Assembly (NCBI GenBank): GCA_018660825.1
Contig: JABJJO010000169.1
Location: forward strand, 1 to 64,000
Length of the DNA stretch: 64,000 nt
Source of the DNA: Planctomycetaceae bacterium
GTDB taxonomy: Bacteria; Planctomycetota; Planctomycetia; Pirellulales; Pirellulaceae
Reading direction: 5' to 3'
Below are positions 39,359 to 46,561 of the stretch, one piece after another; the first letter of the stretch is position 1, and each line of letters opens with the position of its first letter. A program made the position numbers and the translations under genes. The notes beneath the pieces were generated by a model that was given only the letters and a program-made list of their open reading frames with translations, was not told where the DNA came from and did no database searches.

Positions 39359-40348
39359 GTGCAACGCGAATTTGATGAATTCGAAATGAAAACCGTAATT
39401 GGTATCGGCACGGCCGGTTCCGTTTACAACGCCATCGAGAAGTCGACACAGCGCCCCTGCGCGCTGAAATTATTGCTTCCTGGACTGTCCGACGATGCGA
39501 ATATGGCCTCACGGTTTGAACGGGAAATGCTCATTCTCAGTAAACTAGATCACCCTAACATTGTGCAATACTATGGTGGTGGTAAACACGAGGGCCGTTT
39601 ATTTTACGTCATGGAAGCAGTGCCGGGTGGCTCGATGACGCAGATGCTGCAAACACACGGTAAACTAACATGGCAAGAGACCATCCGCTACGGAATTCAA
39701 CTAAGTTCAGCGTTGCAACATGCCCATAACCATGGGATTGTACATCGCGATATTAAACCGTCCAACCTATTCATAACGTATCAAGGCGATATCAAACTTG
39801 GCGATTTCGGGATTGCACTTGACCGAGCGGAATCCGACCTGACCCAAAATGGAATGACGGTCGGCTCTTGGCTCTACATGGCGCCTGAACAAATACGAGG
39901 TGCAAGCGGCATAACTGGGCAAGCAGACCTGTACTCCCTCGGGTGTCTACTCTATGAATTGCTAACAGGACGACCACCGTTCACCGGCGAACATTTTGCT
40001 GAAATATTTGATCAGCACCTAAAGGATGACCCCAAACCGTTGGCGGATCTTGTGCCAGATTGTCCTAAGTCATTACGCGAAATCATTGCAACCCTTTTAC
40101 ACAAAGACCCCTATCAACGTCCCCACAATGCGCGGGCCGTTCAGGGCGTGATGTCAGAACTGAAACTCGATTGGGCCGAAGACGAGACACGTTATCAACT
40201 GGAATTAAACCGATTACAACTCGCATTCGATTCCCACTCCGCCGCAGCTCAAGGAATCTCGCGCGACATTCCATTCAAACAACTGTTGCCTTGGCTTCTT
40301 TTAGCCATAGCCGCTGCCGTCATCGCGACTCTATTGACCACGCCCTAA
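39359..40348 (+). CDS. Membrane-anchored Hanks-type Ser/Thr protein kinase
   Basis: 329 residues. A GTG start at 39359 is forced: an in-frame TAA lies at 39353-39355 and the next Met would remove part of the kinase. Kinase motifs: glycine loop GIGTAGSVYNA, VAIK-like Lys in CALKLLLPG, HRDIKPSN, GDFGIAL and MAPEQIRG. The kinase domain ends near residue 265, followed by a linker with helix-forming content and a single C-terminal membrane segment (LPWLLLAIAAAVIATLL) that leaves almost nothing outside. It is thus tail-anchored, without the usual extracellular sensor. Substrate unknown. Confidence 0.94.
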   Translation: MQREFDEFEMKTVIGIGTAGSVYNAIEKSTQRPCALKLLLPGLSDDANMASRFEREMLILSKLDHPNIVQYYGGGKHEGRLFYVMEAVPGGSMTQMLQTHGKLTWQETIRYGIQLSSALQHAHNHGIVHRDIKPSNLFITYQGDIKLGDFGIALDRAESDLTQNGMTVGSWLYMAPEQIRGASGITGQADLYSLGCLLYELLTGRPPFTGEHFAEIFDQHLKDDPKPLADLVPDCPKSLREIIATLLHKDPYQRPHNARAVQGVMSELKLDWAEDETRYQLELNRLQLAFDSHSAAAQGISRDIPFKQLLPWLLLAIAAAVIATLLTTP

Positions 40349-40390: not shown

Positions 40391-41374
40391 TTAATTCACG
40401 GTTTGCCAAGGCATTTTATTTAAATCAAGATTCCCGCCGCTGGCAATGACAGCCACTCGACCCAAACTAAGCTGATCGGGCAAGTCTCTAAAAGCCTGGC
40501 TACAAACTGCAGCATAGGCAACCGCCCCGGACGGCTCTACCACTAATTTAGCGCGCTCCAACATCAGCCGCATTGCGATTGCTATTTCATCGTCTTTCAC
40601 ACAAATGATATCGTCTACTAAGTCGCGTACTACCGGCCAAGTCAAATCTCCCAAGCTCGTTAACAAACCGTCTGCGATCGTGACCGGGTTCAGTTGAGGA
40701 ATTAACTCCCCGGCTTGCTTACTGCGCCAAGCGTCATCCGCTCCTGTTGGTTCCGCACCATACACTCGGATCGAGGGGTTAATCTCCTTAGCGGCTAGTG
40801 TTATCCCAGCCAGCAACCCACCTCCGCCAACCGGCGCAACAATCGCATCAAGTTGTGGAACTTGCTTTAGTATCTCAACGCCAACCGTCGCTTGACCAGC
40901 AATCACACGAGCATTGTTATAAGGATGAATAAATGTCGCTCTCTGCCGTGCCACAATCTCCGCTGCGGTTGTTTCACGCGCTGCCAAGGTCGGTTCGCAA
41001 AGTACAATCGTGGCACCATAATCCGCAACCGCGTCTTGTTTGATTTGGGGCGCATTCGATGGCATAACTATCCACGCAGGGATGCTGCGCTGCCGCGCCG
41101 CAAGTGCCAAAGCCTGCGCATGATTTCCTGAACTATGCGTCACCACCCCCGCTGATGCTTGTTCTGAATTCAATTGCAATACGGCGTTACTAGCGCCACG
41201 GTATTTGAACGCACCCGCTTTTTGAATATTTTCGCACTTTACAAATACTTCTCGACCAGCGACCTCGTCAAGTTGCTGGCACGTCGAAATTGGCGTGCGG
41301 TGAACCACTCCCGTCAAACGCTTAACCGCATCTTCAATCTCTGGCTTAGATATTACATATTGCTCGTTAGGCAT
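40391..41374 (-). CDS. Threonine/serine dehydratase-family PLP enzyme
   Basis: 327 residues from the ATG at 41374, chosen for the GAAGGG site 8 nt upstream and a normal family length; an upstream ATG at 41536 would lie inside tctA. PLP lysine K57 in QKAGAFKYRGA, then SSGNHAQALALA and the phosphate loop GGGGLLAG. Family members deaminate threonine or serine, or act on hydroxyaspartate; EutB of ectoine use is a related branch. It overlaps the tctA stop by 8 bp, so translation is coupled to the transporter. This suggests the imported compound or its product is its substrate (inference). Confidence 0.88.
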   Translation of the reverse strand: MPNEQYVISKPEIEDAVKRLTGVVHRTPISTCQQLDEVAGREVFVKCENIQKAGAFKYRGASNAVLQLNSEQASAGVVTHSSGNHAQALALAARQRSIPAWIVMPSNAPQIKQDAVADYGATIVLCEPTLAARETTAAEIVARQRATFIHPYNNARVIAGQATVGVEILKQVPQLDAIVAPVGGGGLLAGITLAAKEINPSIRVYGAEPTGADDAWRSKQAGELIPQLNPVTIADGLLTSLGDLTWPVVRDLVDDIICVKDDEIAIAMRLMLERAKLVVEPSGAVAYAAVCSQAFRDLPDQLSLGRVAVIASGGNLDLNKMPWQTVN

Positions 41375-42875
41375 CGACATCACCCTTCTGTTTTTTTCCG
41401 GTGGAAACAGCAGTCTGCCACGCCTTAACGATCGGATAAATAGCAAGTCCAAACGCAACCAACAATAACACCAACGAGACCGGACTCGATAACAGCGGGA
41501 AATAACTGCCTCCTGATGCTTGCAATGCGGATCCAAGTTTCTCTTCAGCGATCGGGGCTAATACAAATCCAATCACAAAAGGTGCGAGGGGAATTTTAGT
41601 GCGGTCCAATAAGAACCCGAGCAACCCAAACCCTAACATCACCCATACATCGAATAATCGATTGTTCAATGCAAATGAACCAACAACACAAAATACCATC
41701 ACTATCGGCAGCAAAAGATGACGGGGGATTACTGCCAGCTTAGCAATCCAGCGCGCGGTACCCACCATAATCACAAACATCGCTATGTTCGCCAACAGCA
41801 TCGTCATGATAATCGTGTAGACAATCTCGGGATCATTCTGGAACAACAACGCCCCAGGTTGCAAGCCGTGGAGCACCAAAGCTCCAAGCAATATTGCATC
41901 GATGACGCTACCAGGAATCCCCATTGCTACCAAGGGAATCAAGGCACCGCCAATGGTCGCGTTATTGGCAGCCTCACTGGCAATAATCCCCTCTTCGGAA
42001 CCATGGCCAAACAACTCCGGATTTTTCGACATGCCCTTAGCCGCTGAATAAGCCATCACGCTACCAACATTGGCACCCACCCCTGGTAAAATGCCAACCC
42101 AAGTGCCTATTACCGAACTACGAAACATATTGTACAAATGTCGCCGCCAATCAGTTAGCCGCAGGAAAACGCCATCGGTGTTCCCCGCGATCGCCGCTAC
42201 CTTAGTGACTGGCCTAGATGCTTCATGAATAATTTGGCTAACCGCGAACATGCCAATTAATACAGGAAGCACCGCAAAACCACCATTAAGTTGCTCAATA
42301 CCTAGCGTCCAGCGAGTCTCGCCTGTGGCTGGCGACTCGCCGGGAATGGTGACAAGCATCCCGAGCATTCCGGCAAACAAACCACGAATCAACGACTTTC
42401 CAGATACTGCAGCGATTAATACGAGTGCAACCGCCACCAACGCAAAATAGTCAAAAGGACTGAGCTTCATTGAAATTACGGAAATCGGCTTTGCCAGGGA
42501 CAACAAAAACGCCCACGAGATCATCCCTCCCACAAATGAAGACATGATCCCCAATCCCAGAGCGCGACCAGGTTGTCCAGCCTGTGCCAACGGGTATCCA
42601 TCGAGGGTGGTAATAACGGATGCGGGGGTACCCGGCATCCGCAACAAAGTCGCGGTGATTAAACCACCGGAAATCGATCCAACGTACATCGAAATCAGCA
42701 ATACCATCGCTTCCGCTGGGGCCATGGAATAGGTGAGCGGTAACGTTAGCGCGATTAACATTGCCCCGGTCAGCCCTGGAATAGCACCGATCGCTATCCC
42801 CAACGCTGTGCCCACCACAACCCACAACAGGTTTATGGGTGATCCCCAAATCAAATCTAATAAAACATCAAACAA
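41367..42875 (-). CDS. tctA: Tripartite tricarboxylate transporter large permease subunit (TctA)
   Basis: 502 residues with about 11-12 membrane segments. TctA hallmarks: IAIGAIPGLTGAMLIAL, YVGSISGGLITATLL and PGTPASVITTLDGYPLAQAG, repeated in variant form in the second half (GTWVGILPGVGANVGSVMAY, ALIPLVAMGIPGS). It forms the main channel of a secondary TTT importer for carboxylates or similar solutes, driven by ion gradients. The gene follows the fused TctC-TctB gene by 12 bp and overlaps the dehydratase gene. Confidence 0.95.
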   Translation of the reverse strand: MFDVLLDLIWGSPINLLWVVVGTALGIAIGAIPGLTGAMLIALTLPLTYSMAPAEAMVLLISMYVGSISGGLITATLLRMPGTPASVITTLDGYPLAQAGQPGRALGLGIMSSFVGGMISWAFLLSLAKPISVISMKLSPFDYFALVAVALVLIAAVSGKSLIRGLFAGMLGMLVTIPGESPATGETRWTLGIEQLNGGFAVLPVLIGMFAVSQIIHEASRPVTKVAAIAGNTDGVFLRLTDWRRHLYNMFRSSVIGTWVGILPGVGANVGSVMAYSAAKGMSKNPELFGHGSEEGIIASEAANNATIGGALIPLVAMGIPGSVIDAILLGALVLHGLQPGALLFQNDPEIVYTIIMTMLLANIAMFVIMVGTARWIAKLAVIPRHLLLPIVMVFCVVGSFALNNRLFDVWVMLGFGLLGFLLDRTKIPLAPFVIGFVLAPIAEEKLGSALQASGGSYFPLLSSPVSLVLLLVAFGLAIYPIVKAWQTAVSTGKKQKGDVDA

Positions 42876-42887
42876 CGTTCATCCCTT

Positions 42888-44399
42888 TTATGGTAATTCA
42901 ATATGCAATCCAGATTGGAATACGGCATAGATCCAAAATGGCACGAGGACAACAACGTCAAGGAATATTGGAAAAGGACGTGCCCGACGAAAAACTGTAC
43001 TCCGTGGCCCAATCACTAATCCAAACAAACAAATGAAACACATCGTAAGCCACCGATAATCCCAGGGTAAATATTCTAGACTCAGGACGTAAAGGACCAT
43101 CAGCACAGCCACTTTCGTTACTGTAATCCAATACTTTCTTTTATTTTTATGAGACAGTGGAGGTTCGACATCTTCTATTTCTGTTTTCGACTGCCAATCA
43201 CCCCTCGGCGCATCCTGATTAATAACATCACTGCGACCACTGCTTCGCGACGTTTCTAAAAACAGCAGCACCCGCAAAAACAACATCCCGACTAGACATA
43301 GACCGGTAGCCGCTAGAATAATCCGTGGGATATTTGGCAATACGTCAGGAGAAGTTGAATCAACGCTTTGAATCTCCGAAATACGTTCTGCCAATTCACC
43401 CTGCATTTCGTCACCAGTTAGAATCAAAGGGTCACTAAGCCGAAGCGCTAGTTGATTTCGCACAATCTCGGTTTTCATGCAATCCTCAAGTAATTTTGCA
43501 ATTCGATCGATCTTGGCCTGGTCAGTTCCTTTGGGAAACCACCAAAAATGCATGTTGGCATGCACAAAATCAAATCCTTGTTCGCGCGCGGTTAGTATTT
43601 CTGGCACCCGGGGATCCCGTTCCGGAGCACTAATGGCAATCGCTCTCAGTCCACCAGCTTTGAACGCAATATATTCCCCAAGTGAAAACGCAGAAACATC
43701 AGCATGTCCGCCTACGACTGCTTCAAATCGTTGTGCTCCACCACCCGTTTGCGTATAGCGAAACGCCGAGCCGGGCAGTTGACGCTCTAAAATCAATCCG
43801 GCGTAGTGGACAGGAGCGCCCAGATTAGCTGCAAAGACTAGCTGATCTGGATTTTCGGCAGCGGCGGCCATGATTTCGGACAATGTCTGATACGGTGAGT
43901 CATCTCGGACAGCGATAATCAACCGCGTTTTCCCAGTAGCGGCAATGGGCTCGAAAGATTCTGAGCCGTAGGATACCTTGCCGGAAGATTGCGCCGTCAG
44001 CATCGCCTCATGCAAGATCATCATCGTGTAACCGTCCGGAGCTGCCTTGCGTGCGCGCCCACTGCCAATCGTTGCTCCCGCACCGCCTATGTTTTGGATG
44101 ACTAACTCTTGCCCTAGCAACTTATGCTCAGCGGCTGCGTGTTGAATCATTCGCGCAAATGCATCACTCTCACCACCGGTATTGAATGGCACAATAACCG
44201 TAATGGGCTTGAGCGGATAAACACTTTCAGATCCGCTTGTCGGATTTGAACGCTGGTATACGACAAATAGAATACAGGAAATAATCCAAACCGCAGTACG
44301 CACAACTACCCACGGTCTTAATCGTCGCCAGGCATTAATCGTTGCTGAACCAATCTGACTTACCATCGAATGCATTATATCTATTCCGCGAACGCCCAA
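42888..44399 (-). CDS. TctC-TctB fusion: TTT transporter binding protein joined to small membrane subunit
   Basis: 503 residues. An uncleaved N-terminal membrane helix (about 30-49) leads into a TctC/Bug-type binding domain at about 60-355: YPLKPITVIVPFNTGGESDA, NIGGAGATIGSG, AAPDGYTMMILHE and TQTGGGAQRFEAVVGGHAD. A second membrane helix (about 357-383) and a charged linker follow. Then a TctB-like region with further helices closes with the typical FQSGLHIELP tail. Normally TctC is a free periplasmic protein and TctB a separate four-helix protein. Here no other tctB or tctC is present and tctA follows at once, so this one gene seems to supply both. Confidence 0.85.
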   Translation of the reverse strand: MGVRGIDIMHSMVSQIGSATINAWRRLRPWVVVRTAVWIISCILFVVYQRSNPTSGSESVYPLKPITVIVPFNTGGESDAFARMIQHAAAEHKLLGQELVIQNIGGAGATIGSGRARKAAPDGYTMMILHEAMLTAQSSGKVSYGSESFEPIAATGKTRLIIAVRDDSPYQTLSEIMAAAAENPDQLVFAANLGAPVHYAGLILERQLPGSAFRYTQTGGGAQRFEAVVGGHADVSAFSLGEYIAFKAGGLRAIAISAPERDPRVPEILTAREQGFDFVHANMHFWWFPKGTDQAKIDRIAKLLEDCMKTEIVRNQLALRLSDPLILTGDEMQGELAERISEIQSVDSTSPDVLPNIPRIILAATGLCLVGMLFLRVLLFLETSRSSGRSDVINQDAPRGDWQSKTEIEDVEPPLSHKNKRKYWITVTKVAVLMVLYVLSLEYLPWDYRWLTMCFICLFGLVIGPRSTVFRRARPFPIFLDVVVLVPFWIYAVFQSGLHIELP

Positions 44400-44405
44400 C
44401 GTTTA

Positions 44406-45338
44406 CTACTGAAAAAACACGCGTTCTGCTGTGCCGCGTAAAAGTAAATCTTTATCGCCCGCTGACAGGAAATCTGCCTGCTTGATGAGGTCGATCGACG
44501 GCGCGTATTCGTGTCCTTCAACGACCTGAAACGGACCATCGCTGGCCCACATCAATCGCTCGGGTCCAAAAGCATCCAAACATCGCTTGATCATCGGCAA
44601 CAAATCTTTGTAGGGTGCCTGTTTCTTACCCAGCGCGTAGTACGCTGAAATCTTAACGGACACGTTTTTGTGTTTTGCCAAGGCACAGAGGGCATCTAGG
44701 TCTGTTTTACGAATTTCGCCGTCTATTCCAACACGGCCAAAATGATCAATTACAACGGGCGTATCCGGATGCTGTTTGCACATTGCACCAACGCTTGGCA
44801 AATGCTCGACATTAATTAAGGGACACATCGCTAAACCATGTTTCGCACCAGCTTGCCACATCGCATTCATGCCATCGCCGTTAAGCCATTGATTGGCAGA
44901 TCGACCCTTTGGTTGAATCCTAAAGCCCCGCACACCGCGACGCGCTTGCTTGAGCATATTACGCACCGGTTGATTGTTTTCATCAACAATGCCGACCCCA
45001 CCAAATACACCCCTAAATTTTTTCATCATGTCGAGCATGTAACTGTTATCAAACTTGTAGAAACTCATTTGGATCAGCACAATCCGAGTGACCCCTGTGG
45101 GGCGACAATGGGCAAACAGTTGTTCCGGTGTGAAACTAACGGGCTTTATGTCCGATTTTTTGTAGCCGACGGCCAAAGGATATCGTTCCGTATCCGGAGT
45201 CCAGACGTGAACATGCGCGTCGATAAATTCAGGCGGTTTAGCTTCAGCAAACAATGGATTTCCTAGACTCGTGGCGACTGGTAATGCTGTCGACAAACAT
45301 GATGTTGTTATAAACTTGCGGCGATTAAACAAAAACAC
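44406..45338 (-). CDS. Exported amidohydrolase family (LigI-like) hydrolase
   Basis: 310 residues. N-terminal NRRKFITTSCLSTALPVA looks like a Tat or Sec signal. The TIM-barrel amidohydrolase starts at FIDAHVHVWTPD (HxH metal motif), continues through PVVIDHFGRVGIDG and ends with the acid in LMWASDGPFQV. This resembles 2-pyrone-4,6-dicarboxylate lactonase-type members. 6 bp upstream of the TctC-TctB gene, it leads the operon, so it probably converts an external lactone or amide to the compound taken up (inference). Confidence 0.88.
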   Translation of the reverse strand: MFLFNRRKFITTSCLSTALPVATSLGNPLFAEAKPPEFIDAHVHVWTPDTERYPLAVGYKKSDIKPVSFTPEQLFAHCRPTGVTRIVLIQMSFYKFDNSYMLDMMKKFRGVFGGVGIVDENNQPVRNMLKQARRGVRGFRIQPKGRSANQWLNGDGMNAMWQAGAKHGLAMCPLINVEHLPSVGAMCKQHPDTPVVIDHFGRVGIDGEIRKTDLDALCALAKHKNVSVKISAYYALGKKQAPYKDLLPMIKRCLDAFGPERLMWASDGPFQVVEGHEYAPSIDLIKQADFLSAGDKDLLLRGTAERVFFQ

Positions 45339-45481: not shown

Positions 45482-46561
45482 CTAGCGAATACTGTTCGTG
45501 CCGACGACGGATTTATTCCATTCAAGACCGAGCATGATGCAATTAATACCCGACCCGATACCGAGCAGGGCTAATTTATCGCCAGATTCAATTTTATTTG
45601 CTTTAGCGGCGAAGGCCCAAGTGACCGGTAAGGCAGCGGAGCCCGTGTTACCTAACCATTGGAATGTGGTAGAGTCCTTTTCAGGTGGCAAGCCCAGCGA
45701 TTCTAACATCAGCTTACGATGGCCAGATCCGACTTGGTGGCAAACGGTTTTATCAATGTCAGCGCGTGTCCAGTTTGACTCATCGAGAAAACGCGCGAAC
45801 GTGATTACTCCTGTTTCGATACCTCGAACCATTAACGTCTCAGAATCTGTGTGCATAAAAGGCTTCATGTTGTCAGCGACCGCTTCATCTTTGCCACTTT
45901 GACACAGGGTATGGTGTTGCGTATTTGCCTGTGCGGTGGCAGTGCAAAGGCGGTTTCCGGTGGTGGTGGTGGCTTCATTAGTGAGCAAGATTGCCGAGCT
46001 TGCCGAGCCAATTGTCAGCGAGGCAACGGCCTTTTTGATCGTTTTTCGAGTCCAGTGCGAACCACTGTTGAGAGATTCAATCGTGTTTTCAACCAACGCA
46101 CGGCTATCTTCAGTTCCGACGACTAGTGCGGCGGCCACTTGCCCCAGTTCGATTGCATTCGCAGCCGAGATGATTCCGTTGAGCTGACCCAAACATGCGT
46201 TGGAAACATCGTAAATAGTGCATTCAGATGGCAATCCCAGAGCATGGTGTACTCGACAAGAAGTGGCCGGTTCTAAGTGATCTCGGCAAACGCTGCCATG
46301 AATCAACATACCGATATTATTGACATCAAAATCAGCAGCTGCGATCGCTTGTTGTCCACTTTCAATGCTCTTATCGCCAGGCAACACCCCCGATTGCCAA
46401 AAACGGCGTTCCTTAATTCCGGTCATCAATTCCAGACGACCAACGGGAAGACTGAGTCGTTGATACACTGGATCCAGGCGTTTCTCTAAGTCAGCGGTGC
46501 TCAACACTTGCGCGGGCAACGTGTAACCTAGTGATTCGACAAAGACGTTATTGTATTGCAT
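45482..46561 (-). CDS. Thiolase-superfamily FabH/OleA-like 3-oxoacyl synthase
   Basis: 359 residues. Active-site Cys C123 in SNACLGQLNG, His in VCHQVGSGH and Asn in WLGNTGSAALP give the Cys-His-Asn set of ketoacyl synthase III. E97 in HLEPATS is where OleA enzymes carry a second acidic residue from the partner subunit. The sequence resembles OleA (head-to-head fatty acyl condensation) at least as much as FabH. No oleB, oleC or oleD lies nearby. Cytoplasmic. It lies 143 bp before the amidohydrolase operon on the same strand. Confidence 0.82.
   Translation of the reverse strand: MQYNNVFVESLGYTLPAQVLSTADLEKRLDPVYQRLSLPVGRLELMTGIKERRFWQSGVLPGDKSIESGQQAIAAADFDVNNIGMLIHGSVCRDHLEPATSCRVHHALGLPSECTIYDVSNACLGQLNGIISAANAIELGQVAAALVVGTEDSRALVENTIESLNSGSHWTRKTIKKAVASLTIGSASSAILLTNEATTTTGNRLCTATAQANTQHHTLCQSGKDEAVADNMKPFMHTDSETLMVRGIETGVITFARFLDESNWTRADIDKTVCHQVGSGHRKLMLESLGLPPEKDSTTFQWLGNTGSAALPVTWAFAAKANKIESGDKLALLGIGSGINCIMLGLEWNKSVVGTNSIR

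Follow-up and report, generated by a model that had tools for sequence, protein, structure and literature searches.

A receptor of the tripartite tricarboxylate transporter fused to its small membrane subunit recurs in Planctomycetota

We analysed a stretch of 64,000 nucleotides (the window) from a draft genome of Planctomycetaceae bacterium (assembly GCA_018660825.1, contig JABJJO010000169.1, positions 1 to 64,000), in which one open reading frame joins the TctC receptor and the small membrane subunit TctB of a tripartite tricarboxylate transporter (TTT), followed by tctA (Table 1). This fusion is a genuine rearrangement within a known transporter family, one that recurs and is frequent; it is common in Planctomycetota and found in several planctomycete families. 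We regard it as quite likely that the fusion forms the receptor and small-membrane-subunit half of a TTT, with a fixed receptor that would deliver its substrate in cis.

Table 1. Features of the fusion locus in the window.
Feature	Position	Strand	Basis or remark
3-oxoacyl-ACP synthase III-like (KAS III-like) protein	45482..46561	-	Conserved neighbour
Amidohydro_2 protein	44406..45338	-	6 bp upstream of the fusion frame; N terminus twin-Arg-like by eye
tctC-tctB fusion gene	42888..44399	-	503 aa counted from TTG 44399
N-terminal hydrophobic helix, residues 29-50	44250..44315	-	Model helix; hydrophobic peak 31-47
TctC (Bug-type) receptor domain, residues 60-347	43359..44222	-	Pfam, PDB relatives, Foldseek
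TctB domain, residues 350-503, four model helices	42891..43352	-	Pfam; profile positions 1-24 (helix 1) missing
tctA, large membrane subunit	41367..42875	-	PF01970, E 2.4e-142; starts 12 bp past the fusion stop
PLP enzyme	40391..41536	-	Best NCBIfam match beta-hydroxyaspartate dehydratase BhcB, below equivalog cut-off

The fusion occupies a single stop-free frame, and both of its Pfam domains lie above their cut-offs: TctC (PF03401) at residues 83-315 (E 4.2e-27, 95.8 bits, cut-off 27) and TctB (PF07331) at residues 347-503 (E 6e-9, 36.6 bits, cut-off 29.1), the latter covering profile positions 25-137 of 137. The AlphaFold2 model (mean pLDDT 78) shows the N-terminal helix, an alpha/beta receptor at a pLDDT of about 90 and, less surely (pLDDT about 55-82), helices at 357-386, 417-443, 448-463 and 477-497. 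Bug/TctC proteins of the PDB align inside residues 53-340 (phmmer), and in Foldseek the receptor resembles Bug27 (2qpq; target TM-score 0.89). The initial annotation had proposed a TctC-TctB fusion with a Bug-type binding protein at about residues 60-355 and with tctA 12 bp beyond; domains, model and frame spacing confirm it, and the TctB profile match spans residues 357-503, the part on which the proposal depended. A Pfam search for the TRAP components DctP, DctQ and DctM gave no match at E<=10 in the fusion or in TctA. The locus thus combines in one gene cluster the TctC/Bug receptor, the small membrane subunit and the large membrane subunit of a TTT; the usual, non-defining trait of three separate subunits with a diffusible receptor is not found in the fusion. 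Compared with the relative L038, dN/dS is 0.06 in TctC (strong constraint), 0.27 in TctB helices 3-5, 0.67 in TctB helix 2 and about 1.1 in residues 1-59, which are hardly constrained. Because this N-terminal stretch is unconserved and an ATG lies at 44375, the TTG start is probably eight codons too early and the ATG the likelier start.

In six of the seven relatives (L038-L044) the order KAS III-like gene, amidohydrolase, fusion, tctA, PLP enzyme is kept (the contig of L041 starts inside the amidohydrolase gene), and three scanned members add an aldo/keto reductase to the block. The likely start of the PLP enzyme is M53 at 41380 (own count), overlapping the end of tctA, a placement based in part on the length of its relatives. 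A serine/threonine kinase-like gene on the opposite strand (39359-40348) adjoins the cluster and is in place in all seven relatives, its kinase domain being confirmed by scan in L038 and L042. In the unfused alphaproteobacterial relatives the order tctC-tctB-tctA is kept. A sulfatase gene follows the TTT in two scanned loci (L046:10480-11886 and L050:9244-10638) of f4, another family holding close relatives, and also follows the nearest unfused tree relative, on a Chelativorans plasmid. In this clade sulfatase genes, with L098:6388-7806 among them, lie behind fused as well as unfused TTT systems, a hint that the substrate may come from a sulfate ester. The substrate is probably a carboxylate, but the neighbours vary from clade to clade and do not name it. 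The annotation had also stated that no separate tctB or tctC is present, which is true of this locus but not of the genome: a second TTT (G000:C32:46379-49067; L001, L006, L059) consists of tctA, a separate tctB of 194 aa and a tctC that is cut by the contig end.

We surveyed the fusion at three levels, with Pfam profiles and with our own HMMs, which were built from 22 fused rows including some of the tested proteins. Among 392 genomes of the phylum, TctB was matched at E<=1e-4 in 35 and above the cut-off in 31, of which 23 hold at least one fusion-sized frame. At least 69 rows lie above the cut-off (own count), comprising 24 frames of 448-535 aa, eight of 983-984 aa, and at least 37 rows in frames of 138-398 aa, at least 29 of them from G260, G286 and G330 (best ten candidates per genome); our HMMs found TctC and TctB together in 24/24 fusion-sized and 8/8 longer, three-way frames. 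Among 296 genomes of the window's order, 34 TctB rows pass, six separate and 28 in long frames, and TctC and TctB share one frame in 27 of the 28, that is, in 27 of the 34 passing rows (own HMMs). Below the cut-off, G620:C50 and G632 proved to be fusions; our HMMs found neither TctC nor TctB in G394:C61, G552, G657 and G448 (G434:C8 was left out). In 170 genomes of f4, 75 rows pass (own count): 55 frames of 444-533 aa, 11 of 974-984 aa, four of 130-393 aa with a late TctB start and five separate, TctC having been checked in only some of these frames. When 14 two-domain fusions were scanned with Pfam, both domains were above cut-off in 13, the remaining one (L039) having TctB at 24.0 bits. In a survey across phyla, a plasmid collection contained one place covering >=80% of the query in 2/793 (group A, see below) and 3/853 (group B) matching records; no fusion was seen in the records fetched (one of two for A, three of three for B), a search that a fusion with a diverged TctB could escape. 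In the A record, from Cupriavidus CH34, tctC is a frame of 341 aa; in all three B records tctC and tctB are separate.

Fused TctB lacks its first helix, with a single exception (L182). In the phylum survey, matches to separate TctB start at profile positions 2-8 in 36 of 37 rows (the exception lies at a contig edge) and those to fused TctB at 17-32. In f4, five matches start at 2-7, all in short frames (141-252 aa), and the other 70 above the cut-off start at 16-35; of these 70, 66 lie in frames of 444-984 aa. In the order, five of the six separate rows start at 2-7 and one at 15 (G614), while the 28 long frames start at 10-35. Dropping helix 1 solves a problem of orientation: TctC already ends outside, and TctB would be inverted if it still began with the usual N-in helix 1. 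The exception, L182:4958-6541, keeps helix 1 (profile 10-137) and adds a linking helix between the two domains, which would restore the same topology and is, to judge from the sequence, a second topological solution. The charges beside the first helix behind TctC, helices being set by a crude rule, agree with a passage from outside to inside: summed over 63 fused proteins, the 12 residues after this helix hold 127 K/R vs 53 D/E and the 25 residues before it 162 K/R vs 221 D/E. The repeated loss suggests that helix 1 can be replaced and so limits the possible roles of TctB.

Since helix 1 is lost in the fusions, its position is taken in the window protein by the N-terminal helix, which is flanked N-terminally by Arg residues and probably carries the chain outside instead. 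The annotation had called this helix uncleaved. It has no AxA motif, no lipobox by our simple rule (a hydrophobic stretch with a small residue before Cys, cruder than SignalP) and no SPase I site evident by eye, so that retention is likely but unproven. The helix might instead be a cleaved signal peptide, the mature TctC having a free N terminus and being held by TctB alone, so that anchoring on the N side would be incidental. We consider this rather unlikely for the window protein, in view of the missing motifs, and the three-way fusions, which carry a helix without lipobox between TctA and TctC, need that helix to cross the membrane. In its favour, L156, L182 and L183 have SPase I-like N termini by eye, and many relatives have a lipobox that would be cleaved, so that a retained N-terminal helix is evidently not needed. 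By the same rule, a lipobox occurs in 38 of 54 distinct TctC-TctB fusions (31/34 in group B and 7/20 in group A, assigned by likeness to reference rows), in 0/9 three-way fusions, in 9 of 32 separate TctC and in every complete separate TctC from the order of the window (five genomes); it was found neither in the seven relatives L038-L044 nor in nine plasmid TctC relatives. Tethering of the receptor to the membrane, which the annotation had deduced, follows from the architecture and is as good as shown.

We propose that the N-terminal helix inserts N-in/C-out and sets the topology in place of TctB helix 1, that the receptor would then fold on the periplasmic side, and that TctB helix 2 would lead the chain back into the membrane. 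In this way the receptor would be fixed 1:1 beside its own TctAB translocator, where it could catch a carboxylate, dock onto TctA in cis and pass the substrate on for ion-coupled uptake. Delivery in cis would be the likeliest consequence of the tether, and a kinetic advantage might follow from it. TctC may also be released by proteolysis after membrane insertion. Three observations weigh against the proposed transporter half, namely the modest TctB match, the weak constraint on helix 2 and on the N-terminal stretch, and one fusion (L187:4304-5758) for which TctA was not found in the 11 kb fetched. That locus, and the TctB helices being the least conserved domain, would also suit a substrate sensor or scaffold, in which a membrane-fixed TctC reports its ligand and the TctB remnants merely anchor it; receptors of the TctC type used in sensing are known. 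A sensor is, however, very improbable: tctA adjoins the fusion in all seven relatives (L038-L044) and in 11 of 12 further two-domain loci (the twelfth, L045, has tctA by a separate analysis), 26 of the 27 fusion loci from the survey of the order (L168-L190, L192-L195) have a TctA frame, one genus fuses TctA itself into the chain, and a Pfam scan found no kinase or regulator domain in the window fusion. The genome is a draft of 221 contigs, but an assembly or frameshift artefact joining two genes, which the annotation had named as a risk, is refuted by seven MAG contigs that keep the same joint at 52-84% identity together with the gene order as far as they reach, by the strong constraint on TctC, and by fusion-sized frames in dozens more genomes, some of them single-contig.

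The joining of TctC and TctB seems to have arisen more than once. In a careful TctC tree of 62 rows the fusions split into two clades (A and B), each beside unfused receptors, the neighbour of group A being L098 on a long branch. Placing all 38 fused rows, a group named by architecture and not taken from the tree, in one clade was rejected by 117 log units (AU p 2.9e-61). The same two clades came out of a quick tree of 69 TctA rows, some of them duplicates (SH-aLRT 91 for A and 100 for B). A quick TctC tree of 95 rows is less tidy. Here L156 groups with separate lipoproteins, a long branch sets L182 apart, and group B includes, at a position without support, three alphaproteobacterial receptors that are not fused; a minimum of four changes is required by the starred branches. 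Either a number of fusions above two or, in some lines, a return to separate genes by fission would account for this.

In the genus g10 the three subunits form a single TctA-TctC-TctB chain of about 984 aa, found by protein search in nine genomes (frames of 983-984 aa; three-way loci L013-L021, L049-L051 and L114-L117). Pfam matched TctA and TctC in both g10 proteins scanned whole and TctB in one, at 28.0 bits vs the cut-off of 29.1; our HMMs found TctC and TctB in all nine three-way fusions, and the genome search gave TctB over the cut-off in eight three-way frames, in one of them only with in-frame neighbours. The matches listed for f4, which leave out 85 match-less genomes, include 17 g10 genomes, with 11 frames of three-way size in that survey. 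The model of one three-way protein (L050) has a mean pLDDT of 48, with TctA mostly below 50, and no docking pose was taken from it. In the quick TctC tree the three-way TctC is sister (SH-aLRT 94) to that of L167/L181, L189, L192 and L195, where tctA lies upstream in another frame and the likely ATG of the fusion overlaps the tctA stop (by hand); such an upstream overlapping tctA is a plausible step before the full three-way fusion. Two odd variants were seen besides. L191:3-2171, the 28th long frame of the order survey, lies at a contig edge; its single frame runs from the final part of TctC through a TctB that lacks the usual terminal residues into TctA (TctB by Pfam, TctC and TctA by our own searches). 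Either a C-B-A fusion or an assembly error may explain it. L188:4943-6596, counted among the 27 fusions of the order survey, has TctC-TctB in two overlapping frames with a lipobox in the second, which looks like a frameshift near the N terminus in a draft genome.

We tentatively suggest, as a possibility to which we give less than even weight, that planctomycetes have several times independently made a diffusible-receptor importer receptor-fixed. Extant genomes would preserve the steps of this change, from free TctC and then lipid-anchored TctC to TctC-TctB without helix 1, an upstream overlapping tctA, and the single TctA-TctC-TctB chain. The machine would then always be 1:1 in cis, which could suit the unusual size of the planctomycete periplasm, in which an unattached receptor would become dilute; an enlarged planctomycete periplasm is described in PMC5394234. 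This explanation is a guess, and a control with TRAP receptors showed no fusion: in 199 genomes of the phylum, none of 30 DctP loci has a C-terminal extension >100 aa (L140 ends at a contig edge). A lipobox is present in 8 of the 30, by a rule that visibly misses some (L135, L137, L146), and several other N termini resemble membrane anchors by eye. Since only one of the 50 matching genomes belongs to the window's class, the control neither supports nor refutes a general tethering of receptors. Beyond the DctP domain, 13 of the 15 longest frames continue for <=44 aa; of the two longer ones, L209 ends in a second binding-protein domain and L214 in an unscanned stretch. The former (L209:1675-3849) joins DctP and Peripla_BP_6, two different binding proteins, in one frame of 725 aa. 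A fused receptor, above all in the one-chain TctA-TctC-TctB form, would fix the stoichiometry and keep the receptor at the translocator, and would suit cryo-EM and transport assays; PDB searches with a single TctB sequence and with a single TctA sequence gave no relatives of either, so that, as far as seen here, the engagement of the receptor by TctAB is without a solved structure.

Receptors fused to a membrane domain occur in ABC importers such as OpuA, which resemble the TctC-TctB fusion in the fixed receptor but are ATP-driven. GlnPQ (PMC8025302) has the same arrangement. Among ion-driven importers, work on TRAP transporters reports natural Q-P fusions, rarer still than Q-M (PMC8276074), and names a natural M-P fusion in Acidaminococcus intestini (PMC9352664); there, too, a receptor is covalently joined to a membrane subunit, but without sequence homology, and these fusions are described as rare, whereas TctC-TctB turns up in several planctomycete families. 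TAXI receptors fused to GltS, or anchored as lipoproteins, are described in PMC12344293 (whose reference list includes Roden 2023); here, likewise, a receptor for a secondary transporter is tethered to the membrane, but the pair is a TAXI receptor and GltS, with no TctB-like subunit. No TctC-TctB or TctA-TctC-TctB fusion in print was seen among the matches listed for open-licence PMC papers or in excerpts of them. Within the TTT family, PMC5812351 reports a TctAB fusion in Paraburkholderia caribensis, counted as TTT, which is alike in having two subunits fused but joins the two membrane subunits and leaves the receptor free. With the classical TTT (TC 2.A.80; tctCBA of Salmonella and the Bug systems) the locus shares adjacent homologues of TctA, TctB and TctC in the same order; it differs in that TctC and TctB form one chain, in which TctB lacks helix 1 and TctC would no longer be diffusible.
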